52,662 nucleotides of DNA from Streptomyces sp. WM4235 (GTDB taxonomy: Bacteria; Actinomycetota; Actinomycetes; Streptomycetales; Streptomycetaceae), in assembly GCF_001279725.1 (NCBI RefSeq), contig NZ_LGDE01000427.1, positions 1 to 52,662 of the forward strand, read 5' to 3'. A model generated the notes under the pieces. That model was not told the origin of the DNA. It searched no databases and saw only the letters and a program-made list of their open reading frames with translations. The position numbers and the translations under genes were made by a program. How positions within the stretch are numbered: position 1 is the stretch's first letter; each line of letters begins with the position of its first letter. This document shows positions 1-12,740 of this stretch, piece after piece.

Positions 1-113
1 CCCCCCCCGCCCTCGCCGCCCCCGTCCCCGTCCCCGTCGCCACCCTCGTGCCCGTTCCCGTCTCCGTCCCCCTCCTCGTGCCCGTTCCCGTCCCGGGCGC
101 CGCGGTCCCACCC
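1..113. repeat. Low-complexity CCCGTC-type tract with a 19-bp direct repeat
   Basis: This is a pyrimidine-rich stretch built from CCCGTC/CCCGTT units. A 19-bp sequence starting CCTCGTGCCC occurs at 44-62 and again at 74-92, 30 bases apart, which keeps the reading frame. In the frame of the first gene it reads as an alternating Val-Pro tract. It is probably the variable N-terminal tail of that gene, or the untranslated DNA just before it. Confidence 0.6.
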
Positions 114-1424
114 GCAGGACTCGGGGGGCCGCCCGCGCCGGGCACGGTCGCGGGCCGGGGCCCCCGGGGCGGGCACCTCCCGGTCGAGGCGCCGCACCCG
201 GGGCCGCGCACCACCGCCCTCGCCGCCCCGCCCCCCGCGGAGGCGACCGGCACCGCCTCCACCCCGGAGGGGCCGAGCGGGCCGCGCCGTATCGAGGGGC
301 TCCTCCTCGGTCTCGCCGCGGGCGACGCGGCCGGCTGGCCCGCCGCCCGGCACCGGGCCAGCCGGATGCCCGAGTGGACCCGCCGCCTGACCCGCGAGCT
401 CGACACCTTCGCCGAGCAGAACGCCACCACCACGCTCCCCGTCCCGATCGCCCTCAACCAGCCCCCGGAACCACTGCGCCTGGGCCCGTCCGACGACGCC
501 GAGTGGGCCGCGTTCGCCGCCGAGTCCGTGCTGACGGCCGCCGGGGTGCTGCTCAGCGACCTCAGCCGGTCCCGCCGGATGCGGGCGGCCATCGACCTGG
601 CGTGGAACGCCCTGGCCTCCGAGGTCGCGGCGGCGGCCGAGCGCGCCCCCGAGGTCGAGTCGGCCGTACTGCCCCTGCGCGCCCGGATCTCCGTCCGCGC
701 CGGCCTCGGCAACCTCGCCGCCGGCCTGCGCCCGCCCGCCACCGGCCACGACAACCCGCACTACTTCGACGACGCCGCCTGCGTCCGCGCCTGTGTCCTG
801 GCCGTCGTCCACCCCGGGGACCCCCGCGCCGCGGCCGACCTCGCGGAGTTCGACGCCCGGTACACCCAGGACGGCGACGGGGTGCACGGCGCCCGCGCCA
901 TGGCCGCCGCCATCGCCACCGCCCTCGGCGGCGCGGACACCGACGCCGCCGTGGACGCCGCTCTCGCACAGCTGCCCGCCTCCACCGAGATCGGCCGCAA
1001 CGCCCGTCACGCCGTCGAACTCGCCCGCGCCGATCCGGACGGAGGCGCCTTCGCCATCGTCCCGCTGCTGGAACACCAGATCGTCGACCACGTGTACAGC
1101 TACGGAATCGCCGCCGCCGAAACCGTCCCGGTCGCCCTCGCCCTGGCCACCGCGGCTCGCGGCAAGGTCTCCGAGGCCGTCCCGGCGGCCGCCTGTCTCT
1201 CCCGTGTCGCCGACTCCGCCCCCGCCCTGGCCGGCGCCCTCGCCGGCGCCCTCGGGGGCGGCGACTCCCTCCCGCCCGCCTGGCGCGAGGCCTGCCGCAC
1301 CCTGTCCGGCTGCGCGCTGCCCCGCCTGGCCGGCACCGATCTCGTCGAACTCGCCGCGCTGCTCACCCGTACGGAGCTCACCTCCCCCAAAAACCCCAAC
1401 GCCCAAGGGATGATTCGGACATGA
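3..1424 (+). CDS. ADP-ribosylglycohydrolase-like protein, degenerate C-terminal metal motif (5' end uncertain)
   Basis: First of three tandem members of the ADP-ribosylglycohydrolase (DraG/ARH) family, whose members use a two-magnesium centre to hydrolyse ADP-ribosyl or ribosyl linkages. The frame is open to the left edge, so the true start may lie outside the window. A GTG at 48 is the first usable start inside it, and the first in-frame ATG (366) comes after the conserved N-terminal motif. The first ~90 residues are Val-Pro-rich filler. The domain then begins with GLAAGDAAGWP (about 309-341), and SDDAE (489-503) stands where the family has TDDT. At the C-terminus the usual GGDTDT is replaced by RVADSA, with VADSA at 1206-1220, so one metal-binding Asp seems missing. 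Its stop overlaps the next start (ATGA). It may be an inactive or regulatory partner of the following homologues. Family assignment is firm; catalytic state is inferred. Confidence 0.75.
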   Translation, partial: PPALAAPVPVPVATLVPVPVSVPLLVPVPVPGAAVPPAGLGGPPAPGTVAGRGPRGGHLPVEAPHPGPRTTALAAPPPAEATGTASTPEGPSGPRRIEGLLLGLAAGDAAGWPAARHRASRMPEWTRRLTRELDTFAEQNATTTLPVPIALNQPPEPLRLGPSDDAEWAAFAAESVLTAAGVLLSDLSRSRRMRAAIDLAWNALASEVAAAAERAPEVESAVLPLRARISVRAGLGNLAAGLRPPATGHDNPHYFDDAACVRACVLAVVHPGDPRAAADLAEFDARYTQDGDGVHGARAMAAAIATALGGADTDAAVDAALAQLPASTEIGRNARHAVELARADPDGGAFAIVPLLEHQIVDHVYSYGIAAAETVPVALALATAARGKVSEAVPAAACLSRVADSAPALAGALAGALGGGDSLPPAWREACRTLSGCALPRLAGTDLVELAALLTRTELTSPKNPNAQGMIRT

Positions 1425-2575
1425 CGCACGCTCCCCTCTCCCTCGACGACCGCGTGGCCGGCTCCCTGATCGGCGCCGCCGTCGGCGACGCCCTGGGAGG
1501 TCCGGTGGAGGGCTGGTCCCCGGACCGGATCGTCGAACGGCACGGCGGCCGGGTCCACGGCATCGTCGGCCCCTGGTACGAGGACTGGCGCACCGCCCGC
1601 CCCATCGCGCCTTACCACAAGGGCGACGGGCACGTCACCGACGACACCCTCATGACGCACGCGCTGGTCCGGGTCTACGAGAGCGTGCGGGACCACCTGG
1701 ACGCGTACGCGGTCGCCGACCACCTCGTCCCGGACCTCATGACGAACCCCCGTTGGATCCCGGAACTCGAAGCCGAGGCCCTGCCCCTCCAGCGGATCTT
1801 TCTGGCCGAGAAGTGGATCGTGACCCGGATCCACTACGCCCACGCGGACCCCCGCGAGGCCGGCGCCGGCAACATCGTCAACTGTGGCGCCGCGATGTAC
1901 ATGGCCCCGGTCGGGCTCGTCAACGCGGGCCATCCGGCGGCCGCGTACGCGGAGGCGCTGGACGTCGCGGGCGCGCACCAGTCCTCGTACGGCAGGGAGG
2001 CGGCGGGCGTGTTCGCCGCCGCGGTGGCGGCGGCGTGCGTACCGGGCGCGAGCGCGGCCTCGGTCGTCGAGACGGCCCTGTCGCTGGCGAAGGACGGCAC
2101 CCGGGAGGCCATCGCGGCGGTGTGCGACGTGGCCGCGCGCCACCGGGACTTCGAGTCGGCGCTGGCCCCCCTGCGGGTGGCGGTGGCCCCGTACGACTCG
2201 GTGGGCCCGGACTACCGCACACCCTCGCTCGGCGCCCGGCGGCCCTCGCGGCTGCACTCGATCGAGGAACTCCCCGTCGCGCTCGGCATGCTGCTGGTGG
2301 CCGACGGGGCGTACGAGGCGTCCGTGCTCGGGGCGGTCAACTACGGCCGGGACTGCGACTCCATCGCCACCATGGCTGGGGCGATGGCCGGCGCCCTGGG
2401 CGGCGAGGCCGTGGTCCCCGCCGGCTGGGCGAAGCAGGTGGCGGAGGCCAGCCGGCTGGACCTGCACGCGCCGGCGGCCGCGCTGGCGACGGTGGCCCGG
2501 GAGGTCTTCGACCGCGACCGGGAGCGGCGCCGCGCCCACGAGGCGGCCTTCGCCGAGATCGCGACGCCGCGGTGA
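1421..2575 (+). CDS. ADP-ribosylglycohydrolase family protein, canonical motifs
   Basis: A 384-residue member of the ADP-ribosylglycohydrolase family and the most canonical of the three paralogues. Visible motifs are GAAVGDALGG near residues 18-27, TDDT at 73-76, the glycine-rich GNIVNCGAAMYMAPVG in the middle, and GRDCDS (309-314), equivalent to the C-terminal GGDTDT metal motif. Together these supply the acidic ligands of the two-Mg2+ centre, so this copy should be catalytic. The ATG at 1421 overlaps the preceding stop (ATGA), and its own stop overlaps the next GTG (GTGA), so translation is coupled on both sides. The genetic context (sugar kinase, CoA-transferase, lyase) argues for small-molecule riboside hydrolysis rather than protein de-ADP-ribosylation; that is inference. 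Confidence 0.88.
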   Translation: MTHAPLSLDDRVAGSLIGAAVGDALGGPVEGWSPDRIVERHGGRVHGIVGPWYEDWRTARPIAPYHKGDGHVTDDTLMTHALVRVYESVRDHLDAYAVADHLVPDLMTNPRWIPELEAEALPLQRIFLAEKWIVTRIHYAHADPREAGAGNIVNCGAAMYMAPVGLVNAGHPAAAYAEALDVAGAHQSSYGREAAGVFAAAVAAACVPGASAASVVETALSLAKDGTREAIAAVCDVAARHRDFESALAPLRVAVAPYDSVGPDYRTPSLGARRPSRLHSIEELPVALGMLLVADGAYEASVLGAVNYGRDCDSIATMAGAMAGALGGEAVVPAGWAKQVAEASRLDLHAPAAALATVAREVFDRDRERRRAHEAAFAEIATPR

Positions 2576-4020
2576 CCGGGCCCGCGGCGTGCGCGGTGCG
2601 CCTGACCTGGGTCCAGCCGGAGGACCTGGTCGGGCACGAGTTCCGTCAGGCGGCGGAGGACGGGCGCGAGGCGCGGCCGCTGCTGCGCGCCTGGCTCGAC
2701 GCGGGGGGCCGTGCGGCCCCGGCCCGCGCCGGCGCCTCGGCCGCTGCCGCGCCGCCGGAGCTGCGCGCCCTGGCCGGTCGTCTGCTGGCCGAACTCGCCG
2801 CCCTGCCCTCGCCGCTGGCCGCCGACGAGCCGGAGACCTGGCCCGCCATCCGCTCCACCTGGCCCCCGGCTCCCCCACCGACCCGCCCCGACGGCCGACC
2901 CCGGCCCGAACCCCTGCCGGCCACCCTCACCGACCGCCCCGCGCCATCGCCGCCGGCGGCCCGCCCCGACGTCGCCCGCCTGGAGGCCGCCTGGCTCGGG
3001 CGGGCCGTCGGGTGCCTGCTCGGCAAGCCCGTCGAGAAGCTCCCCCTGGACGGGATCCGGGCCCTGGCCCGCGCCACCGGCAACTGGCCACTGTCCGACT
3101 GGTTCACCGCCCGCGGCGTCCCGCCGGAGCTGCTGGCCGCGCATCCCTGGAACCGCAGGTCCGCCCCGACCTCCCTCGCCGAGAACATCGACGGCATGCC
3201 CGAGGACGACGACCTCAACTACCCCCTGCTGAACCTGCTCCTGCTCCAGCGCCACGGCAAGTCCTTCACCACCGCCGACGTCGCACGGCTCTGGCTCGAC
3301 GAACTCCCCGCCGGCCGGACCTTCACCGCCGAGCGCGTCGCCTACCGCAACCTCCTCCAGGGCCTGGAGCCCCCCGCGTGCGCCACCCACCACAACCCGT
3401 TCCGCGAGTGGATCGGCGCCCTCATCCGGGCCGACGTCCACGGCTGGACCAACCCCGGCGACCCGGTGGCCGCCGCGGCCCAGGCCCACCGGGACGCCGC
3501 CCTCACCCACACCGGCAACGGGATCTACGCGGCCCTCTTCACCGCCGCCGCCATCGCCGAGGCGGCCGGCGGCCGGTGTGACGTGCACGGCGCGCTGCGG
3601 GCCGGGCTGGCCGTCGTACCGCCCCGCTCGCGCCTGGCCGGGGCGGTCCGCCTCGGCATCGACGAGGCGGGCCGCCACCGCGACTTCGACCGGGTCGTGG
3701 ACGTCCTCCACGCCCGCTACGACCACCACCACTGGGTCCACTCCCTCCCGAACACGGCCCTGATCGCGGCGGCGCTCACCCACGCCGACGGCGACTTCAC
3801 CCGGTCGGTCTGCAACGCCGTGTCCGGCGGCTGGGACACCGACTCCAACGGCGCCACCGCCGGTTCCCTCGCCGGGCTCCTCACCGGATCGCCCGAGCGG
3901 CTCCCGCGGCGTTGGACCGCGCCGCTGGGCAACCGTCTCGCCACCAGCGTGCCCGGTTTCGACGGCGTCGGCTTCGACACCCTCGCCCACCTCACCGCTC
4001 AGGAGGCAGCCCGCTCATGA
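2572..4020 (+). CDS. ADP-ribosylglycohydrolase family protein with N-terminal extension
   Basis: A 482-residue third paralogue. Residues 1 to ~130 form an extension not typical of the family: a segment beginning LTWVQPEDLVGHEFRQA, then an Ala/Leu-rich helix-prone part and a Pro-rich linker. The glycohydrolase domain follows, with GRAVGCLLGKPVEK near 143-156, EDDD at 211-214 in place of TDDT, and a fully canonical GGWDTDS at 419-425. The GTG start at 2572 overlaps the previous stop (GTGA), and the stop overlaps the kinase ATG (ATGA). The retained acidic motifs suggest an active enzyme. Divergence from its two neighbours suggests three different substrates or a heteromeric complex. Start choice rests on the coupling pattern. 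Confidence 0.85.
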   Translation: MTGPAACAVRLTWVQPEDLVGHEFRQAAEDGREARPLLRAWLDAGGRAAPARAGASAAAAPPELRALAGRLLAELAALPSPLAADEPETWPAIRSTWPPAPPPTRPDGRPRPEPLPATLTDRPAPSPPAARPDVARLEAAWLGRAVGCLLGKPVEKLPLDGIRALARATGNWPLSDWFTARGVPPELLAAHPWNRRSAPTSLAENIDGMPEDDDLNYPLLNLLLLQRHGKSFTTADVARLWLDELPAGRTFTAERVAYRNLLQGLEPPACATHHNPFREWIGALIRADVHGWTNPGDPVAAAAQAHRDAALTHTGNGIYAALFTAAAIAEAAGGRCDVHGALRAGLAVVPPRSRLAGAVRLGIDEAGRHRDFDRVVDVLHARYDHHHWVHSLPNTALIAAALTHADGDFTRSVCNAVSGGWDTDSNGATAGSLAGLLTGSPERLPRRWTAPLGNRLATSVPGFDGVGFDTLAHLTAQEAARS

Positions 4021-4982
4021 CGGCCATCGCCGTGCTCGGCAGTACGAACATGGATCTCGTCGCCTACGTCTCCAAGGCGCCTCGCCTCGGGGAGACCGTC
4101 ACCGGCCGCGCGTTCCACACGGTCCCCGGCGGCAAGGGCGCCAACCAGGCCGTGGCCGCCGCCCGCCTCGGCGGCGAGGTGGTGATGATCGGCGCGGTCG
4201 GCGCGGACGAGTTCGGCGTACGGTTGCGCTCCGCGCTCGCCGCGGCCGGCGTGGAGACGGCCGCCCTGCGCACGGTGGAGGGGGCCAGCGGCACCGCCCA
4301 CATCACCGTCGACGACGAGGGCGCGAACAGCATCGTCGTCATCCCCGGCGCCAACGCCCGCGTCACCGGGCTGGAGGTGGGCGACGACTCCCGGATCGGC
4401 TCGGCCGACTCCCTGCTCCTGCAACTCGAACTCCCCCTGGAGGCCGTGATCGCCGGCGCCCGCGCCGCCCGCGCCCACGGTGTCCGTACGATCCTCACCC
4501 CGGCGCCCGCCCGGCCCCTGCCCGCCGAACTCCTCGACGTCACCGACCTCCTGGTGCCCAACGAGCACGAGGCGGCGACCCTCACCGGGCTCACCGACCC
4601 GTACCGGGCCGCCGAGGCGCTCCTGCGCAGCGTGCCGCAGGTGGTGATCACCCTCGGTGGGGCCGGGGTGCTGTTCGCCGCACGGGGGCGCGAGCCGCTG
4701 GCTCTGCCGGCGATCCGGGTCCGGGCCGTGGACACCACCGCCGCCGGCGACACCTTCGTCGGGGCGCTCGCCGTGGCCGTCGGGGAGGGCCGTCCGATGC
4801 CCGGGGCGCTGCGCTGGGCCTCGGCGGCGGCGGCGCTGTCCGTGCAACGGCCCGGCGCCCAGGACTCGATGCCGACCCGGTCCGAGACGGACGCCTTCGC
4901 CGCGACCGCCCCCGACACCGGCCCCGAGCCCGGAGGCGGGACCACCGCGGCGGCCGGCCGAGCCACCGGGGGCGCCTCGTGA
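4017..4982 (+). CDS. Ribokinase-like PfkB-family carbohydrate kinase
   Basis: A 321-residue PfkB-family kinase most like ribokinase. It begins with the family's AVLGSTNMDL strand, carries the substrate-binding GGKGAN motif (38-43), and ends with the ATP/anion-hole signature DTTAAGDTF (239-247) holding the catalytic-base Asp245. Such enzymes phosphorylate ribose or a nucleoside 5'-hydroxyl in the cytoplasm. It lies between three glycohydrolase-like genes and two CoA-ester genes and overlaps both neighbours by four bases, so the expected job is to trap the sugar released upstream. The last ~35 residues after the kinase fold are Pro/Gly/Thr-rich and probably disordered. Exact sugar unknown; I do not assign rbsK because a true ribose operon is not visible. 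Confidence 0.88.
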   Translation: MTAIAVLGSTNMDLVAYVSKAPRLGETVTGRAFHTVPGGKGANQAVAAARLGGEVVMIGAVGADEFGVRLRSALAAAGVETAALRTVEGASGTAHITVDDEGANSIVVIPGANARVTGLEVGDDSRIGSADSLLLQLELPLEAVIAGARAARAHGVRTILTPAPARPLPAELLDVTDLLVPNEHEAATLTGLTDPYRAAEALLRSVPQVVITLGGAGVLFAARGREPLALPAIRVRAVDTTAAGDTFVGALAVAVGEGRPMPGALRWASAAAALSVQRPGAQDSMPTRSETDAFAATAPDTGPEPGGGTTAAAGRATGGAS

Positions 4983-6232
4983 CCCGGACACCCCACCGCG
5001 CGCCCGCGACCCGGCCCGCCACCACCCCCGGCCCGGTCGCCGACGCCACCGGTCCCCTCGCCGGACTGCGCGTCCTGGACCTGGCCACCCTCTTCGCCGG
5101 CCCGCTGGCGGCCACCCTCCTCGGGGACTTCGGCGCGGAGGTCGTCAAGGTCGAGCACCCGGTCCGTCCCGACCCCTCGCGCGGACACGGTCCCGCCAAG
5201 GACGGGGTCGGCCTCTGGTGGAAGCTGCTCGGTCGCAACAAGCGGACGATGACCCTCGACCTGTCCGCTCCCGGCGGGCGGGACACCCTGCTCCGCCTCG
5301 CCGCCGGCGCCGACGTGATCATCGAGAACTTCCGCCCCGGCACCTTGGAGAAGTGGGGCCTGGGCTGGCCGGAGTTGTCCGCCGCCAACCCGCGGCTGGT
5401 GCTGGCCCGTGTGACGGCCTTCGGTCAGCACGGCCCGTACGCCCACCGCCCCGGCTTCGGCACCCTCGCCGAGGCCATGAGCGGTTTCGCCGCGATCACC
5501 GGGGAACCGGACGGCCCCCCGACCCTGCCGCCGTTCGGGCTCGCCGACTCCGTCGCCGCGCTGACCACCGCGTACGCCGTGATGACGGCGTTGGCCGGCC
5601 GGGACCGCACCGGGCAGGGGCAGGTGGTGGACCTGGCCATCATCGAGCCGATCCTGACGGTGCTGGGTCCGCACCCGCTCTGGTACGACCAGCTCGGTTT
5701 CGTCCAGCCGCGCACGGGCAACCGCTCCACCAACAACGCGCCCCGCAACACCTACCGCAGCGCGGACGGGCGTTGGCTGGCCGTGTCCACCTCGGCGCAG
5801 TCCATCGCGGAGCGCGTGATGCGGCTGGTCGGTCGACCGGAGTTGATCGCGGAGCCCTGGTTCGCGACGGGCTCCGGCCGGGCCGCCCACGCGGGGGTGC
5901 TCGACGAGGCGGTCGGCGGTTGGATCGCCCGGTACAAGGCGGAGGAGGTGATCGCCGCGTTCGAGGACGCCCAGGCGGCGGTCGCGCTGGTCTACGACGT
6001 ACGGGACGTCATGGCCGATCCGCAGTACGCCGCGCTCGACACGATCACCGAGGTGGAGGACCCGGAACTCGGGCCGCTCCGCATGCAGAACGTGCTCTTC
6101 CGGCTGTCCGGCACCCCGGGTGCCATCCGCTGGGCGGGCCGCCCCCACGGCGCGGACACCGAGGCCGTCCTCACCGAACTCGGCCTGACCGAGGCCGAGA
6201 TCACCGCACTCGCGAAGGACGGAGTCCTGTGA
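4979..6232 (+). CDS. CaiB/BaiF family (class III) CoA-transferase
   Basis: A 417-residue class III CoA-transferase, the family of formyl-CoA and carnitine CoA-transferases, which moves CoA between carboxylic acids through an aspartyl-CoA intermediate. After a short Pro/Thr-rich N-terminus the fold begins GLRVLDLATLFAGPLAA. The conserved block HPGFGTLAEAMSGF is not altered, and Asp190 in FGLADSVAAL matches the catalytic Asp position. A GTG start overlaps the kinase stop (GTGA) and the stop overlaps the next GTG (GTGA). Followed directly by a CoA-ester lyase, it probably activates an acid released from the glycoside upstream. The donor and acceptor acids cannot be read from sequence. Confidence 0.9.
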   Translation: MTRTPHRAPATRPATTPGPVADATGPLAGLRVLDLATLFAGPLAATLLGDFGAEVVKVEHPVRPDPSRGHGPAKDGVGLWWKLLGRNKRTMTLDLSAPGGRDTLLRLAAGADVIIENFRPGTLEKWGLGWPELSAANPRLVLARVTAFGQHGPYAHRPGFGTLAEAMSGFAAITGEPDGPPTLPPFGLADSVAALTTAYAVMTALAGRDRTGQGQVVDLAIIEPILTVLGPHPLWYDQLGFVQPRTGNRSTNNAPRNTYRSADGRWLAVSTSAQSIAERVMRLVGRPELIAEPWFATGSGRAAHAGVLDEAVGGWIARYKAEEVIAAFEDAQAAVALVYDVRDVMADPQYAALDTITEVEDPELGPLRMQNVLFRLSGTPGAIRWAGRPHGADTEAVLTELGLTEAEITALAKDGVL

Positions 6233-7044
6233 TCCTTACTTGGCTGTACGCTCCCGGCGACCGCCCCGAGGTGGTCTGGAAGGCCCTGCACTCGGGGGCC
6301 GACTCCGTCATCGTCGACCTGGAGGACGGGGTCTCGGCCTCCCGCAAGGAGTACGCGCGGGCCGCGACGGCCGAACTGCTCGCCGACCGGCCGCCGGTGC
6401 CCGTGCAGGTCCGGGTCAACGCCCTGGACTCGCCGTGGGCCGGCGCCGACCTCAGCGCCCTGACCGGGCTCCGGGGGCTGTCGGCGCTGCGGCTGCCGAA
6501 GATCGCCGCCCCCGAGCAGATCACCGCCGTCGCGAACCGCACCGGCGGCGTGGCCCTGTACGCGCTGCTGGAATCGGCCCTGGGCGTGGAGCGGGCGTAC
6601 GAGATCGCGCGCGCCCACCCGGCCCTGCACGGCCTCTCCCTCGGCGAGGCGGACCTGCGGGCCGACCTGAACGTCAGCGCCGAGGCGGGCCTGGACTGGC
6701 CGCGCTCACGGGTGGTGGTCGCGGCGCGGGCCGCGGGTCTGGTCGCGCCCGCGCAGTCGGTGTTCCCCGACATCCGGGACCTGGAGGCGCTGGCCGTCTC
6801 CTGCGCGCGCGGCCGGGCCCTCGGGTTCCTCGGCCGGGCCGCGATCCACCCGCGCCAGCTCCCGGTGATCGAACGGGCCTACGTGCCCGGCCCGGAAGAG
6901 GTCAGCGCCGCCGAGGAGATCGTCACCGCCGCCCGGGCCACTCCGGGCGCGCTGGCCCTCCCCGACGGCCGGTTCGTGGACCCGGCCGTGGTCGCGGCCG
7001 CCCACCGCACCCTGACCCTCTCCCGGCGCGGCGACCGGGTCTAG
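6229..7044 (+). CDS. HpcH/HpaI-fold CoA-ester lyase (CitE-like)
   Basis: A 271-residue TIM-barrel lyase of the CitE/malyl-CoA/citramalyl-CoA group, which cleaves beta-hydroxyacyl-CoA esters in a Mg2+-dependent retro-Claisen reaction. Visible residues include APGDRP at 8-13, the VDLEDGV strand (29-35), Arg62 in VRVNALDSPW, metal-ligand candidates Glu115 (ALLES) and Asp142 (GEADL), and the C-terminal GRAAIHPRQLPVI block. At 271 residues it is like stand-alone CitE-like proteins rather than the citrate-lyase beta subunit, and no citrate-lyase alpha or gamma gene is nearby. Last gene of the coupled operon; a strong terminator follows after 13 bases. It probably releases acetyl-CoA, pyruvate or glyoxylate-type products. 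Confidence 0.88.
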   Translation: MILTWLYAPGDRPEVVWKALHSGADSVIVDLEDGVSASRKEYARAATAELLADRPPVPVQVRVNALDSPWAGADLSALTGLRGLSALRLPKIAAPEQITAVANRTGGVALYALLESALGVERAYEIARAHPALHGLSLGEADLRADLNVSAEAGLDWPRSRVVVAARAAGLVAPAQSVFPDIRDLEALAVSCARGRALGFLGRAAIHPRQLPVIERAYVPGPEEVSAAEEIVTAARATPGALALPDGRFVDPAVVAAAHRTLTLSRRGDRV

Positions 7045-7125: not shown

Positions 7126-8184
7126 TCAGACCTTCTTGGCCTCGGAGGCCGTCTCGGAAGCCGTCCCCGAGGCCGACTCCGCGTCCGCCCGCTCGGCGTC
7201 CTTCGGCTCGGTGTCCCTCGGCGCGCTCTCGGCCTTGACGAGGCTCGGCGTCTTGTCCCCGGCCACGCTCTTCGCCTCCGCGTCCGTCGCGTCGGCGTCC
7301 TTCACGTCGGCGTCCTTCGGTTCGGCGTCCGCGGCGTCGATCGGGGTCTTCGCGTCCCCGGCGGCGGGACCGCGGTCCGGCTCCACGATCTCCTCGCGGC
7401 CCGGCCGCAGCTTCGCGGACAGCACCAGGTAGATCACGGCCAGCAGGAAGACCACGATCGAGGTCCACACGTTCAGCCGCAGGCCGAGGATGTGGTGTGC
7501 CTCGTCGACGCGCATGTACTCGATCCAGCTGCGGCCGACGCAGTACGCGGCCACGTACAGGGCGAAGGCCCGGCCGTGTCCCAGCTTGAAGCGGCGGTCG
7601 GCCCAGATCACCAGCACGGCGACGCCGACGCACCACAGGGACTCGTACAGGAAGGTGGGGTGATAGGTCCCCGCGACCCGGTTCGGGCCCTCGCTGATCT
7701 TCACCGCCCACGGCAGGTCGGTGGCGCGGCCGTAGAGCTCCTGGTTGAACCAGTTGCCCCAGCGTCCGAAGGCCTGGGCCAGCGCGATGCCGGGGGCCAG
7801 GGCGTCGGCCCAGGCCGGCAGCGGGATGCCGCGGAGTCGACAGCCGATCCAGGCGCCCACGGCGCCCAGCGCGATGGCGCCCCAGATGCCGAGGCCGCCT
7901 TCCCAGATCTTGAAGGCGTCGACCCAGTTGCGGCCCTCGCCGAAGTAGAGCTGGTAATCGGTGATGACGTGGTAGAGGCGACCGCCGACAAGGCCGAAAG
8001 GCACCGCCCACACGGCGATGTCCGCGACCGTGCCCGGCTTTCCGCCGCGCGCGATCCAGCGCCTGTTGCCGAGCCAGACGGCGACGAAGACGCCGATGAT
8101 GATGCAGAACGCGTAGCCGCGGAGCGGGATCGGTCCGAGATGGATCACGCCGGTCGACGGGCTGGGGATATAGGCAAGTTCCAT
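7126..8184 (-). CDS. lgt: Prolipoprotein diacylglyceryl transferase with long acidic C-terminal tail
   Basis: Lgt transfers diacylglyceryl from phosphatidylglycerol to the lipobox cysteine of preprolipoproteins in the cytoplasmic membrane. The 352-residue protein has about seven hydrophobic segments and the Lgt signature GRWGNWFNQELYG (140-152), with GGRLYHV at about 67-73. Bacterial Lgt enzymes are usually about 260-300 residues. Here roughly the last 70 residues are a soluble tail rich in Ala, Asp, Glu and Lys, with repeated KDAD/DAEPKDA-like units, predicted to lie in the cytoplasm. ATG start at 8184, 100 bases downstream of the dsbA-like gene. The lipoprotein signal peptidase lspA is at 47400-47960. 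Confidence 0.95.
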   Translation of the reverse strand: MELAYIPSPSTGVIHLGPIPLRGYAFCIIIGVFVAVWLGNRRWIARGGKPGTVADIAVWAVPFGLVGGRLYHVITDYQLYFGEGRNWVDAFKIWEGGLGIWGAIALGAVGAWIGCRLRGIPLPAWADALAPGIALAQAFGRWGNWFNQELYGRATDLPWAVKISEGPNRVAGTYHPTFLYESLWCVGVAVLVIWADRRFKLGHGRAFALYVAAYCVGRSWIEYMRVDEAHHILGLRLNVWTSIVVFLLAVIYLVLSAKLRPGREEIVEPDRGPAAGDAKTPIDAADAEPKDADVKDADATDAEAKSVAGDKTPSLVKAESAPRDTEPKDAERADAESASGTASETASEAKKV

Positions 8185-8284
8185 GGCAGGACCGACGCTA
8201 CCCTGCCGGGCGGTGCAGACCGCAACCCGCCCGGCAACCTCGGCTGAATCGATACAGGGACGCCACGCCTTCCCCGGGGGCCTC

Positions 8285-9313
8285 TCAGTCCTCGCCGGCC
8301 CCCCGGGAGACGGAAGCGGAACCGGCGGAACCGGCCTGGCTCCCCGCCGTCGAGCCCGACCGCGACGAGGAACCGTTCGAGGAGGACCTGTTCGAGGAGG
8401 ATCCGGTCGACGTCGAGGACGACAGCCCGGACGAAGAAGAAGAGGAGGACGAGGAGGAGGACGAGGCCTTCGACCCGTTCTTGCCCGTCCCGGAGGCCTT
8501 CGGGCTCGGGGCGGCCGACCCGCCCTTCGCCGCTGCCTCCACCTGCGCCTTCAGCTTCTGCGGGGTCAGCGGATTCGCCTGGTCGGCGAAGATGTCCTTC
8601 CCGTCGAGGAGGATCGTCGGGGTGCCCCGGAACTTCCCGGCGCGGAACGCCTCCTGCGACTTGCCGGCCCAGGCGTTGTGCGTGCCCTTCTCGACGCAGG
8701 CGCGGAACTCGGGGGTGTCGAGCCCCTCCACCTTCCCGGCCAGCTCCAGCAGCTTGGCGTTCTTGCCGTAGGCGTCGTCGACCTCCTCGGGCTGGTTCTG
8801 GAAGAGGACGTCGTGGTACGCGGGGAACTTCCCGGCGTCCTGGGCGCACGCGGCGGCGTTGGCCGCCTTGAGGGAGCCGGTGCCGCCCATGTTCCCGTCG
8901 ATCAGCGTGACCAGGTGGTAGTCGACCTTGAGCTGTCCCTTCGCCTCCAGCTCGTGGACGGTGGCCCGGTAGTTGTCCTCGAAGGCCTTGCAGGCCGGGC
9001 AGCGGAAGTCCTCCCAGACGGTCAGGGTGGACGTGGCCGCGTCCTTGCCCGTCCGGATCGCGAGCGCGTCCTTGCCCACGGCCCCGGACGGGGCGACCAC
9101 CGGGCCCTTGGCGGAGTCGCCCGATTTCCCGGTGTTGGCCGCGATCAGGCCGACAACGGCGGCCAGACCGAGTACGCCGACCACCGCCGCCGCCACGATC
9201 AGGGTCCGTCGGCGCTTGTCCCGGGTCTTCTGCCGCTCGCGCTCCACGAGGAGTCGCTCCCGGGCCGATCGTTTCGTCGCATCGCGGTTCGCACCGTCGT
9301 TCTTGTCGCTCAC
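8285..9313 (-). CDS. Membrane-anchored DsbA-like thioredoxin-fold protein with poly-Ser tail
   Basis: A 342-residue protein with a highly charged cytoplasmic N-terminus (1-36), one transmembrane helix (about 38-58) and an extracytoplasmic DsbA-like domain with the CPAC redox motif at 105-108 and a cis-proline segment RGTPTILLDG (229-238). It should act in disulfide formation or exchange on exported proteins. After the fold, residues ~265-342 are low complexity: a run of 12 serines (284-295), then more Ser/Gly/Thr repeats, probably a flexible or wall-spanning tail. The GTG at 9313 is chosen because it gives the N-terminal layout shared with a second paralogue at 38748-39542. It lies between trpA and lgt. 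Confidence 0.88.
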   Translation of the reverse strand: MSDKNDGANRDATKRSARERLLVERERQKTRDKRRRTLIVAAAVVGVLGLAAVVGLIAANTGKSGDSAKGPVVAPSGAVGKDALAIRTGKDAATSTLTVWEDFRCPACKAFEDNYRATVHELEAKGQLKVDYHLVTLIDGNMGGTGSLKAANAAACAQDAGKFPAYHDVLFQNQPEEVDDAYGKNAKLLELAGKVEGLDTPEFRACVEKGTHNAWAGKSQEAFRAGKFRGTPTILLDGKDIFADQANPLTPQKLKAQVEAAAKGGSAAPSPKASGTGKNGSKASSSSSSSSSSSSGLSSSTSTGSSSNRSSSNGSSSRSGSTAGSQAGSAGSASVSRGAGED

Positions 9314-9327
9314 GTTCGGCCAAACGA

Positions 9328-9357
9328 AGCGGGGAGGCACTCTCGTGCCTCCCCGCT
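9328..9357 (-). terminator. Hairpin between trpA and dsbA-like gene
   Basis: A 13-bp perfect stem around a TCTC loop (core GCGGGGAGGCAC) lies between the trpA stop (9409) and the dsbA-like start (9313). It has no T-run. It could end trp transcription or reduce read-through into dsbA-lgt. Confidence 0.6.
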
Positions 9358-9408
9358 CCCACTTCCACCCGATCGGGCTACAGAACCCCGCTCGGGGCCC
9401 GTCCGGCG

Positions 9409-10248
9409 TCAGGACCTGCGTACGCCTTCCGCAAGCTCGGCCGCCAGCGCCCGCACCCCGGCGAGCCCGCTCCGCGGGTCCGGCGCGTCCAGCAGCACCT
9501 TCACGAAGGCCGAGCCGACGATCACCCCGTCGGCGAAGGCGGCGACCTCCTTCGCCTGAGCGGCGTTGGAGACGCCCAGACCGACGCAGACCGGGAGGCC
9601 GCGCCGGGCGCCCGGGGTGGCGCGGGTCCGCTCGACGAGGGCCTGCGCCTCGTTGCCGACGGACGCGCGGGTGCCGGTGACGCCCATCAGGGAGGCCGCG
9701 TAGACGAAGCCCGAGCCGGCCTCGGTGATGGTGGCCAGGCGGGCGTCCCGGCTGCTGGGGGCCACGACGAAGACGGTCGCCAGACCGTGCTTGGCCGCGT
9801 GCTCGCGCCACAGCGCGGACTCCTGGACCGGCAGGTCGGGCAGGATGCAGCCAGCGCCGCCCGCCGCGGCGAGCTCGGCGGCGAACCGCTCGACGCCGTA
9901 GCGGTCGATGGGGTTCCAGTACGTCATCACCAGGATCGGGACCCCGGTGGCCTCGTGGGCCTCGCGCACGGTCCGCATCACGTCGGCGATCTTGACTCCG
10001 CCGCGCAGGGCGATGTCGTCGGCGGTCTGGATGACCGGGCCGTCCAGGACCGGGTCGCTGTGCGGCAGGCCGATCTCGACGACGTCCGCGCCGCCCGCGA
10101 TGACGGCCTTGACCGCCTCGATGCCGCCGTCGACGGTCGGGAAGCCGGCCGGGAGGTAGGCGACGAGGGCGGCACGGTCCTCGGACTTCGCCTTCGCGAG
10201 GGTCGCGGTGAGCAGTTCGATGTTGCCGGTCCCGTGCGTGGTGCTCAC
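9409..10248 (-). CDS. trpA: Tryptophan synthase alpha chain
   Basis: Cleaves indole-3-glycerol phosphate to indole and glyceraldehyde-3-phosphate, passing indole to TrpB in the cytoplasmic alpha2beta2 complex. The 279-residue TIM barrel carries the catalytic pair Glu58 (VVEIG) and Asp69 (SDPVLDGP), separated by the family's usual 11 residues. The GTG start at 10248 overlaps the trpB stop (GTGA), giving coupled translation of the two subunits. A hairpin follows the gene. Confidence 0.97.
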
Positions 10249-11519
10249 TTGTCGTCCCCCTCGGAGAACTCGTTCTCGGCGACTTCGCCGTCGGTGTCGT
10301 ACAGGTCGAAGTACCGCGCGGCCGTGTCCATGTCCTTGTCGCCGCGACCGGACAGGTTGACGACGATCAGGCCGTCCGGGCCCAGTTCCCGGCCCAGGTC
10401 GAGGGCGCCCGCGAGGGCGTGCGCGGACTCGATCGCCGGGATGATGCCCTCCGTGCGGGAGAGCAGGCGCAGGGCCTGCATGGCGGCGTCGTCGGTGACC
10501 GCCCGGTACTCGCCGCGGCCGGTGTCCTTGAGGTAGGAGTGCTCCGGGCCGATGCCCGGGTAGTCCAGGCCCGCCGAGATCGAGTACGGCTCGGTGATCT
10601 GGCCCTCCTCGTCCTGGAGGACGTAGGAGCGGGAGCCGTGCAGGATGCCGGGCTCGCCCGCGGTGAGCGTGGCGGCGTGCTCCCCGGTCTCGACGCCGTG
10701 TCCGGCGGGCTCGAAGCCGACCAGGCGGACGCCGGCGTCCGGGATGAAGGCGTGGAACAGGCCGATGGCGTTGGAGCCGCCGCCGACGCAGGCCGCGACC
10801 GCGTCGGGCAGCCGTCCGACGCGCTCCAGGATCTGGCGGCGGGCCTCGACGCCGATGACCCGGTGGAAGTCGCGGACCATCGCGGGGAAGGGGTGGGGGC
10901 CGGCGACCGTGCCGAAGAGGTAGTGGGTGCGGTCGACGTTGGCCACCCAGTCGCGGAAGGCCTCGTTGATGGCGTCCTTGAGGGTCCGGGAGCCGGACTT
11001 CACCGCGATGACCTCGGCGCCCAACATGCGCATCCGGGCCACGTTCAGGGCCTGGCGCTGCGTGTCGATCTCGCCCATGTAAATGGTGCAGTCGAGGCCG
11101 AAGAGTGCGCAGGCGGTGGCGGTGGCCACGCCGTGCTGGCCGGCTCCGGTCTCGGCGATGACGCGGGTCTTGCCCATGCGCTTGGTGAGCAGTGCCTGGC
11201 CCAGCACGTTGTTGATCTTGTGCGAGCCGGTGTGGTTGAGGTCCTCGCGCTTGAGGAAGATCCGCGCGCCGCCCGCGTGCTCGGCGAACCGGGGCACCTC
11301 GGTGAGGGAGCTGGGCCGGCCGGTGTAGTTGACCATGAGCTCGTCGAGCTCGGCCGCGAAGGCCGGGTCGCTCTTGGCCTTCTCGTACTCGACGGCGACC
11401 TCGTCCACGGCGGCCACGAGGGCCTCCGGGATGAACTTGCCGCCGAAGTCGCCGAAGTAGCCCTCGGCGTTGGGGACGTGACCCTCGGGGTCCGGGATGA
11501 AGAACGAGCTGGTGGACAT
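10245..11519 (-). CDS. trpB: Tryptophan synthase beta chain
   Basis: PLP enzyme joining indole and serine to give tryptophan. 424 residues starting at the ATG at 11519, which has an AGGAGT ribosome-binding site at 11527-11532; a longer in-frame extension exists but lacks conservation signals. PLP lysine is Lys101 in [11 protein letters not shown], and GGGSNAIG is the phosphate loop. It overlaps trpA by four bases. The 193 bases between it and trpM include a small CACCCC/GGGGTG hairpin (11587-11603). Confidence 0.97.
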
Positions 11520-11712
11520 GGCCACTACTCCTACGGGGTGCGACGGGAGGACTTCACCGTATTGCGCCGCCTGCCCGCACCACGCGCACCCCGCTGAGGG
11601 GTGGGGAGGGTACGGACGGAGCGACCCGCGCCCGGAGCCGGCGGCTCGGGGCGGCGGGCCGTACGGGACCACCCGGCGGGTACGCGGGGTACCGGACGGG
11701 GCGTGGTCTTCG

Positions 11713-11922
11713 TTACGGCGCCGAGGCGCCGCGCCATCGCATGCCGTTGACCTGGCCCGGCTCGGAGCCGATCACGTAGCGCACCCGTCGCCCGTGCACG
11801 CGCCGGGCCGGGGCACGGCAGCCGCGGGGGCGGCAGCCGCGCGCCAGCGGCGCGTGCGTCGTCGGCACGGCGGCCGGGCCGGGGCCCGGTCGGGTGCGGA
11901 CGAAGGAGCGGAAGGGCGGCAC
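11713..11922 (-). CDS. trpM: TrpM-like small basic protein of the trp cluster
   Basis: A short, strongly basic ORF between trpC and trpB, the place where streptomycetes carry trpM (trpX), reported as a small modulator of tryptophan biosynthesis. The C-terminal part, [18 protein letters not shown] then [11 protein letters not shown], is what I recall of that family. The start is uncertain. The GTG at 11922 gives 69 residues and begins 8 bases after the trpC stop, with GGAG about 12 bases upstream inside trpC; a second GTG would give about 51 residues. No membrane segment or catalytic motif. Function taken from position and remembered similarity only. Confidence 0.65.
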
Positions 11923-11930
11923 GGGAGGGG

Positions 11931-12740
11931 TCAGCTCCGCCCGTGGCGCAGGGCGGGGTGGGCGCCGGCGGCGACGAGGTCGGCCACGGCCGCCTTCGGG
12001 TCGCGTCCGGTGACCAGGGACTCCCCGACGAGGACGGCGTCGGCGCCCTCGTTGGCGTAGGCGATCAGGTCGTGCGGTCCGCGGATGCCGGACTCGGCGA
12101 TCTTCACGATGTGGTCGGGGATCTCCTGGACGACGCGCTCGAAGGTGGAGCGGTCGACCTTGAGGTCCTTGAGGTTGCGCGCGTTGACACCGATGATCTT
12201 GGCTCCGGCGGCGACGGCGCGCTCGACCTCCTCCTCGTCGTGGACCTCGACGAGCGGGGTCAGACCGATGGTCTGGGCGCGCTCGATGAGGGAGACCAGG
12301 GCCTCCTGCTCCAGGGCCGCGACGATCAGCAGGGCGAGGTCGGCGCCGTAGGCGCGGGCCTCCCAGAGCTGGTAGGCCGTGACGATGAAGTCCTTGCGCA
12401 GGATCGGGATGTCCACGCGGGCGCGGACGGCCTCCAGGTCGGCCAGCGAGCCGCCGAAACGGCGCTGCTCGGTGAGGACGGAGATGACCGCCGCACCGCC
12501 CGCCTCGTAGTCGGCGGCGAGCGCGGCCGGATCGGCGATGGCGGCCAGCGCGCCCTTGGACGGGCTGGAGCGCTTGACCTCGCAGATCACCTTGACGCTG
12601 TCGCCGCGCAGGGCCGCGACACCGTCCTTGGCCTGGGGCGCCTTGGCGGCACGCTCCTTGAGCTCGTCGAGGCTCACGCGGGCCTGCCGTTCGGCAAGGT
12701 CTTCGCGGACCCCTTCGATGATCTCGTCGAGCACACTCAC
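11931..12740 (-). CDS. trpC: Indole-3-glycerol phosphate synthase
   Basis: Converts 1-(o-carboxyphenylamino)-1-deoxyribulose-5-phosphate to indole-3-glycerol phosphate. 269 residues, TIM barrel, with [11 protein letters not shown] holding Glu54 and Lys56 of the active site, and the [17 protein letters not shown] block. Monofunctional: no TrpF domain is fused, consistent with PriA (19533-20261) supplying the isomerase. GTG start at 12740 with a GGAAGGGG-type site about 9 bases upstream. The 174-base gap before it suggests its own promoter. Confidence 0.96.

Follow-up and report, generated by a model that had tools for sequence, protein, structure and literature searches.

A candidate catabolic operon in Streptomyces that couples ARH-fold glycohydrolases to a ribokinase-type kinase, a CoA-transferase and a CitE-like lyase

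The question raised by the locus described here is why three genes of the ADP-ribosylglycohydrolase family (PF03747), whose name suggests protein de-ADP-ribosylation, stand in one tightly coupled row with genes for a sugar kinase, a coenzyme A (CoA)-transferase and a CitE-like lyase. The row occupies the left end of a stretch of 52,662 nucleotides from Streptomyces sp. WM4235 (contig NZ_LGDE01000427.1, the whole of which is called the window hereafter). The answer favoured here, with confidence slightly better than even, is that the six belong, as second to seventh members, to a catabolic operon of seven genes for an imported acid-bearing glycoside, which is split into a sugar and an acid. An earlier note made from the window alone had preferred small-molecule catabolism to protein de-ADP-ribosylation, and this preference proves right in outline, given the constant partnership with an importer, a regulator, a CaiB-type transferase and a lyase. 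The six genes, with the short names used below, and the gene that bounds them on the right are as follows.

3..1424, plus strand: GHB, a PF03747 protein, 5' end cut at the contig edge
1421..2575, plus strand: GHC, a PF03747 protein with complete metal-site motifs
2572..4020, plus strand: GHD, a PF03747 protein with about 138 residues preceding the domain
4017..4982, plus strand: RBK, a ribokinase-type PfkB kinase, an optional cassette member
4979..6232, plus strand: CAIB, a family III CoA-transferase (PF02515)
6229..7044, plus strand: CITE, a CitE-superfamily acyl-CoA lyase (PF03328)
7126..8184, minus strand: convergent right-hand boundary gene, used as flank marker; lgt by eye

Exact 4-base overlaps occur at all five junctions (ATGA at 1421-1424, GTGA at 2572-2575, ATGA at 4017-4020, GTGA at 4979-4982 and GTGA at 6229-6232), so the coupling of the six genes that had been noted earlier is confirmed together with their families: PF03747 three times, PfkB/ribokinase, CoA-transferase family III and HpcH/HpaI (CitE-like). 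The third-codon guanine + cytosine (G + C) content of the six open reading frames is 0.935-0.963. Because the window is an entire contig (C426; the 7.8-Mb genome is in 478 contigs) and its position 1 is the contig edge, the start of GHB is uncertain; the N-terminal part of GHB is a C-rich linker, and the contig break falls inside it. A fourth PF03747 gene, GHA, lies in the same genome on contig C248, close to the left edge and on the minus strand (C248:83-1066); its stop and an ATG share the bases ATGA, and C248 ends about 80 bases further on in C-rich sequence. Since GHA overlaps its follower in this way and stands directly before GHB in relatives, the operon would most likely consist of seven genes, GHA, GHB, GHC, GHD, RBK, CAIB and CITE, starting with GHA, the unjoined contigs C248 and C426 being, as we infer, neighbours. 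The count of three glycohydrolases thus holds for the window, whereas the set has four, one of which is on C248 and another of which, GHB, has a degraded metal site.

The arrangement is widely conserved. When one genome per species was scanned with GHC as query, at least 593 stretches matched, of which 585 were confirmed, and the best 80 loci, ranked by how similar they are to locus L074 in sequence and hence no random sample, include 59 complete cassettes, that is, with more than 1200 bases to either locus end. Members were counted with tblastn probes, which very diverged ones could escape, and gene calls in some mapped loci follow a crude G + C rule and include shadow frames. The order in relatives is LacI, an ABC sugar importer, GHA-GHB, GHC, GHD, optionally the ribokinase, optionally a barrel/FGE protein, CaiB and the CitE-like lyase. 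The importer, which together with LacI precedes the glycohydrolase genes, consists of two ABC permeases and a solute-binding protein that matches SBP_bac_1 and resembles sugar and oligosaccharide binders. The 59 complete loci contain GHC in 59 cases, GHD in 58, GHA with GHB in 48 (always jointly), CAIB with CITE in 48 (always jointly), RBK in 39, LacI in 39, ABC genes in 38 and the barrel/FGE protein in 13; LacI, both permeases and the binding protein are all present in 38. Since this order is found again in more than 20 named genera, the operon arrangement is more than chance. The 4-base overlaps recur as well, counted in a locus set that includes some genomes twice: CAIB>CITE 69 of 88 junctions, GHD>RBK 57 of 70, GHC>GHD 55 of 96, GHA>GHB 48 of 59, GHB>GHC 32 of 62 and RBK>CAIB 29 of 40, with few at the importer junctions (PERM2>SBP 13 of 71, SBP>GHA 3 of 45). 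The gene set described earlier therefore recurs in relatives, but it is larger than was seen, by GHA and in some cassettes (13/59) by the barrel/FGE protein.

Cassette-bearing taxa include Streptomyces, Nonomuraea, Microbispora, Kribbella, Glycomyces, Herbiconiux, Leifsonia, Cellulosimicrobium and Nanopelagicaceae, the last being a freshwater family. Spread beyond the class looks thin: two Trueperaceae (Deinococcota) contigs, L108 and L162, lie outside the phylum, and among 296 phylum genomes (profile A1) GHC was found solely in eight of the window's genus. The cassette is retained in very small genomes, namely one of 1.3 Mb (G384, which its contig, L098, marks as a Nanopelagicaceae bin) and one of 1.8 Mb (G313, L094), which suggests a substrate worth keeping. 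The barrel/FGE protein is a fusion of a GH13-like barrel, recognised by fold, with a C-terminal FGE-sulfatase-like domain (L077:5282-7279, minus strand; L080:13430-15430, plus strand; L074:2411-4276, minus strand); Pfam recognised the FGE domain alone in four copies. At least 2022 relatives of the fusion were found among 7994 candidates scored, and where the matches listed are named, the name describes the FGE part or reads "hypothetical". It occurs in all 11 complete cassettes that lack GHA/GHB and in two that have both.

A tie between the glycohydrolases and the acid-handling genes comes from co-occurrence, which was determined for the GHC-CAIB pair only, in 394 genomes of the class, one draw serving for both genes (GHC E <= 1e-30, CAIB E <= 1e-110). 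GHC is present in 62 genomes and CAIB in 101; both occur in 62, GHC alone in none and CAIB alone in 39, the weakest CAIB match among the 62 GHC genomes having an E of 2.4e-151 (Fisher p 8.8e-46, kinship uncorrected). The dependence is one-way, that is, GHC is always accompanied by CaiB and CaiB is sometimes without GHC, and this is better explained by an acid-handling enzyme in shared use than taken as a refutation of the pathway. Genomes with one half of the set and no glycohydrolases, which the earlier note had named as evidence against its reading, do exist in part, as the 39 of 394 with CAIB and no GHC. Together with the cassette itself, the co-occurrence supports the logic of a sugar half and an acid half and speaks against protein de-ADP-ribosylation.

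The acid half can separate from the glycohydrolases and yet remain in the genome. All 11 complete cassettes with no adjacent CAIB/CITE have CAIB elsewhere in the genome (63-71% identity, one copy with an internal stop), and CITE directly follows it in all eight places examined (L213, L222-L226, L230 and L231, one of them viewed through a twin record). The CAIB clade formed with L207, L208, L209 and L227 has 12 loci, all with a CAIB-CITE unit, nine with an FCD/GntR regulator nearby and five with a DctM permease, by family a TRAP-type, dicarboxylate-type carrier. Because 11 of these 12 genomes with a separate CAIB-CITE unit hold GHC, the acid half appears movable but retained. GHC was not found at E 1e-30 in the twelfth (G096), whose locus L207 carries GHA-like (46%) and GHB-like (35%) genes and is perhaps another cassette form. 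L207 also has a LacI-like gene (39%), which with the GHA/GHB-like genes lies some kilobases from a CAIB-CITE-DctM group.

What kind of reaction the glycohydrolases may catalyse is indicated by their metal sites. PF03747 scores are 202.3 bits for GHA, 126.8 for GHB, 169 for GHC and 168.8 for GHD (cut-off 26.2), and the predicted GHC structure has the alpha-helical ARH fold. The flap Glu is invariant in GHA (79/79), GHC (112/112) and GHD (106/106), in alignments with some genomes entered twice, and D-D and D-x-D are equally so; in the GHD of the window the metal-site acids are kept as E, EDDD and DxDS. GHA, GHC and GHD consequently have the two-metal ligands and the Glu flap, and GHB does not. 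GHC scores 51.4 of the 337.05 bits needed for the DraG equivalog TIGR02662, to which GHB and GHD have no match at E 1e-4, and 43.9 of 490 bits for the Tri1 ADP-ribosylarginine hydrolase NF041672; GHB and GHD have no match in NCBIfam. DraG, ARH1 and ARH3 compare at 17-25% identity and carry D-x-D-T in place of the D-x-D-S of GHC and GHD; the enzymes of this operon differ from them also by long conserved stretches of their own and by their catabolic operon context. ARH1 and ARH3 are described, in the accessible part of one study, as requiring a cis-2'',3''-OH and an alpha linkage (PMC7050489).

RBK passes the ribokinase model TIGR02152 with 319.7 bits (cut-off 299.65), falls below the stricter NF008353 (282.6 of 341 bits), and has ribokinases as its best solved relatives (245.2 bits). 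The kinase proposed earlier as a pathway member is therefore ribokinase-like, although it is optional, being present in 39 of the 59 complete cassettes. All nine genomes tested have a ribokinase relative, and seven of these lack the cassette kinase (40-48% identity). CAIB matches PF02515 with 399.5 bits and CITE matches PF03328 with 113.9 bits; homology to solved structures did not single out one specificity for CAIB, CITE or the binding protein.

A route can be proposed from these families. In the full form found in other actinobacteria, the LacI-type repressor and the ABC sugar importer would govern and carry out the uptake of an acid-bearing glycoside. By analogy with studied family members, GHA, GHC and GHD would use their two-metal site to hold an alpha-linked ribofuranose by its cis-2,3-diol and would cleave the sugar off, and GHB, whose metal site is damaged, most probably accompanies GHA as a partner that is altered or has no catalytic role. 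The pentose so released, most probably D-ribose, would be phosphorylated by the cassette ribokinase or by another of the cell, while the acid, most likely a hydroxydicarboxylate of the malate or citramalate type, would be loaded with CoA by CAIB, and CITE would split the CoA ester into acetyl-CoA and a 2-oxo acid. The presence of the barrel/FGE protein where GHA/GHB are missing suggests that there is either another glycosidic bond to be cleaved or a different step of entry. The best guess for the substrate, going by family chemistry, is an alpha-ribofuranosyl-type conjugate of a malate-like hydroxydicarboxylic acid; the individual reactions, their order, the identities of sugar and acid and the role of GHB are thus proposed, whereas the genes, overlaps, conservation, GHC-CAIB co-occurrence, metal-site residues, GHC predicted fold and ribokinase score are observed. 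A wider claim is offered only tentatively, as rather doubtful: that actinobacteria degrade a widespread, undescribed nutrient, a furanoside joined to a hydroxydicarboxylic acid, with a dedicated ARH-fold team, that the ARH fold is a general alpha-furanosidase scaffold, with the removal of ADP-ribose as one among its uses, and that GHA-GHB is a hydrolase with a metal-dead sister.

The earlier note had proposed to look for a transporter and a regulator to the left of the six genes. An importer and a regulator stand beside the genes in relatives (38/59), whereas no close relatives of them were found in the window's genome, nor, accordingly, the complete LacI-ABC-glycohydrolase-acid cassette; the importer search in its 478 contigs was made with the binding protein. 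Close GHC relatives occur in nine of 10 same-genus genomes (79-100% identity) and in 29 of 40 in a larger draw (one partial). In the mapped same-genus loci the operon is flanked on one side by gltB/gltD together with a VIT1-family gene and on the other by the convergent lgt-like gene. At this gltB-VIT1...lgt site L137 (Streptomyces sp. HNM0575) has LacI, ABC, all glycohydrolases, RBK, CAIB and CITE, and L150 has LacI only; because of these two, importer and regulator read as lost in core Streptomyces, the alternative being a gain elsewhere. A binding-protein relative was found at another locus, among other genes, in three of seven same-genus genomes (58-59% identity), and no close one in the other four, the window's included. 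These relatives lie at L239, L240 and L241, and by eye those at L240 and L241 are divergent from an APH-type-kinase-like gene.

Several results weigh against the proposed route. No Glu occurs at the flap position or in the surrounding stretch in any of 67 GHB sequences, and the first Asp of D-x-D is absent from all 67, the D-D positions each being retained in 64. RBK is missing from 20 of the 59 complete cassettes, i.e., it is dispensable, and CAIB/CITE are not beside the glycohydrolase genes in 11. Against the named equivalogs CAIB attains at best 225.8 of 750 bits (SucGlutTfsCaiB, formyl-CoA, mesaconate and carnitine models), and CITE falls below the cut-offs for RipC (141.8 of 375 bits, its best) and citE (134.5 of 443.4). 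That the extra protein has a GH13-like fold could point to a hexose part. Among the 39 places with CAIB and no GHC, 27 were examined: 19 are near MmgE/PrpD-family genes, many of these being also near allantoinase-like and cyclase-family genes, and 20 have no same-strand CITE follower, the other seven being five PrpD clusters (L194, L199, L201-L203), L207 and L229 (G383), a cassette cut by a contig end. CAIB is, from these two counts, usable without CITE and may take other acids. In addition, no GHC match was found in 11 of the 40 same-genus genomes, and the best matches in the window's genome are no close relatives, with 23% identity for the binding protein (E 4.5e-16) and 39% for LacI (E 5.2e-51).

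That the glycohydrolases remove ADP-ribose from protein, DNA or RNA, with the other operon genes as bystanders, would agree with PF03747 membership and the ARH fold, and also with the literature on Streptomyces coelicolor, whose SCO2028-SCO2031 are named in the accessible text as uncharacterised DraG/ARH homologues (PMC9411070; three of the four in PMC5087735). These four are taken here to be GHA-GHD from agreement in number, order and place near trp (trpX is given as SCO2038 in the accessible part of PMC5036795). Moreover, the ARH-like SCO5809, from a different S. coelicolor locus, is reported to strip ADP-ribose from RNA ends, in the part of the source available (PMC11833690). However, U-alpha-ADPr, which is one substrate kind, was not acted on by recombinant SCO2028 or SCO2030, and SCO0086 and another ARH-like protein were equally inactive on it, in the accessible part of the report (PMC13036486); in addition, the importer, regulator, CoA-transferase and lyase that constantly accompany the glycohydrolases and the scores of GHC far below the DraG and Tri1 cut-offs make this explanation very improbable. 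A hexose-containing oligosaccharide or glycosyl acid, in which the ARH-fold enzymes cleave a non-ribose bond, is an unlikely substrate, though a less remote one: the GH13-like barrel in 13 of 59 complete cassettes, including all 11 without GHA/GHB, and the resemblance of the binding protein to sugar and oligosaccharide binders would suit it, whereas the cassette kinase passes the ribokinase model and studied two-metal ARH sites, as described in the accessible text, use the ribose cis-diol (PMC7050489).

It might also be supposed that a single transcript serves two pathways unrelated to each other, one for glycoside use (glycohydrolases, importer and kinase) and one for acid use (CAIB and CITE). 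CAIB-CITE is indeed separable, standing apart from the glycohydrolase genes in 12 loci, nine of them with the FCD/GntR regulator, and the CAIB tree calls for several changes of context: five changes of the cassette label are required, of which well-supported branches impose at least three, in a 92-row tree from which near-copies from cassettes and rows of fewer than 250 residues were dropped and in which L229 was labelled 'other'. Unrelated pathways, however, would not require GHC and CAIB to be retained together, so that the presence of GHC in 11 of 12 genomes with displaced CAIB-CITE, and of CAIB elsewhere with all 11 unlinked complete cassettes, weakens this idea, which we hold to be rather improbable. 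A comparably low probability is given to salvage or repair of an internal metabolite by the core Streptomyces operon, its dedicated importer having been lost. For it count the 20 of 59 complete loci without LacI and ABC alongside and the four of seven same-genus genomes, the window's included, with no close binding-protein relative found; the relative at another locus in the other three (58-59% identity) and the whole set retained by L137 at the same locus oppose it.

The earlier statement that no pathway with this gene set has been described stands so far as the open-licence PubMed Central literature goes: no description of it was found there, subscription journals being mostly outside that search. 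Several known systems share parts of the cassette. The dissimilation of itaconate and citramalate (RipC/Ccl), with CitE-like beta-hydroxyacyl-CoA lyases, shares the order of CoA-transferase and then CitE-superfamily lyase; the mapped cassette differs in having no hydratase and a transferase of family III. The Bacteroides ribose locus, which the literature search did not turn up, has a gene of the ARH family next to genes for ribokinases and nucleoside hydrolases and, to our knowledge, no CoA-transferase or CitE-like lyase. The rbs operons are like the cassette in being composed of a ribokinase-type kinase, an ABC importer and a LacI regulator; the cassette differs in its SBP_bac_1 binding protein and in the added hydrolases and acid half. 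Such genes are rbsACB, rbsK and RbsR in the accessible part of PMC13432705, and a PfkB ribose kinase described there was set aside, its neighbours being unrelated to the gene set of this operon. The nearest described operon type is yegTUV of Escherichia coli, which according to the accessible text combines the ARH-family YegU, the sugar kinase YegV and the transporter YegT in one operon under the repressor YegW (GgaR), its gene functions not being established in that text (PMC10819704). It differs in having one ARH protein, an MFS nucleoside-type transporter, a GntR-type regulator and no CoA-transferase or lyase. The Streptomyces literature places among the ADP-ribosyl hydrolases proteins that are taken here to be products of this operon. 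Should these be catabolic glycosidases, half of the eight S. coelicolor DraG/ARH homologues given in the accessible text of PMC9411070 would drop out of that group, and a new kind of ARH-fold substrate would become accessible to assay.

Some further observations concern the surroundings of these genes. Downstream of the operon, the minus-strand genes at window positions 7126-12740 are, by eye, lgt, a DsbA-like gene, trpA, trpB and trpC, and the window's genome has six further PF03747 genes, on contigs C203, C180, C414, C35, C424 and C101. An MFS-DHDPS pair upstream of LacI (L049, L050 and L052; in L051 a broken DHDPS alone) was set aside as a lineage neighbour. L095, a metagenome bin titled Bifidobacterium breve, has a cassette 88% identical to that of an uncultured actinobacterium, and the title looks wrong. 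A second kind of cluster, seen at L201, L202, L203 and other CAIB loci, contains, in combinations that vary, MmgE/PrpD proteins, an allantoinase-like amidohydrolase, a cyclase-family protein, an Asp/Glu/hydantoin racemase, an FAD-binding dehydrogenase and a branched-chain-type ABC importer.

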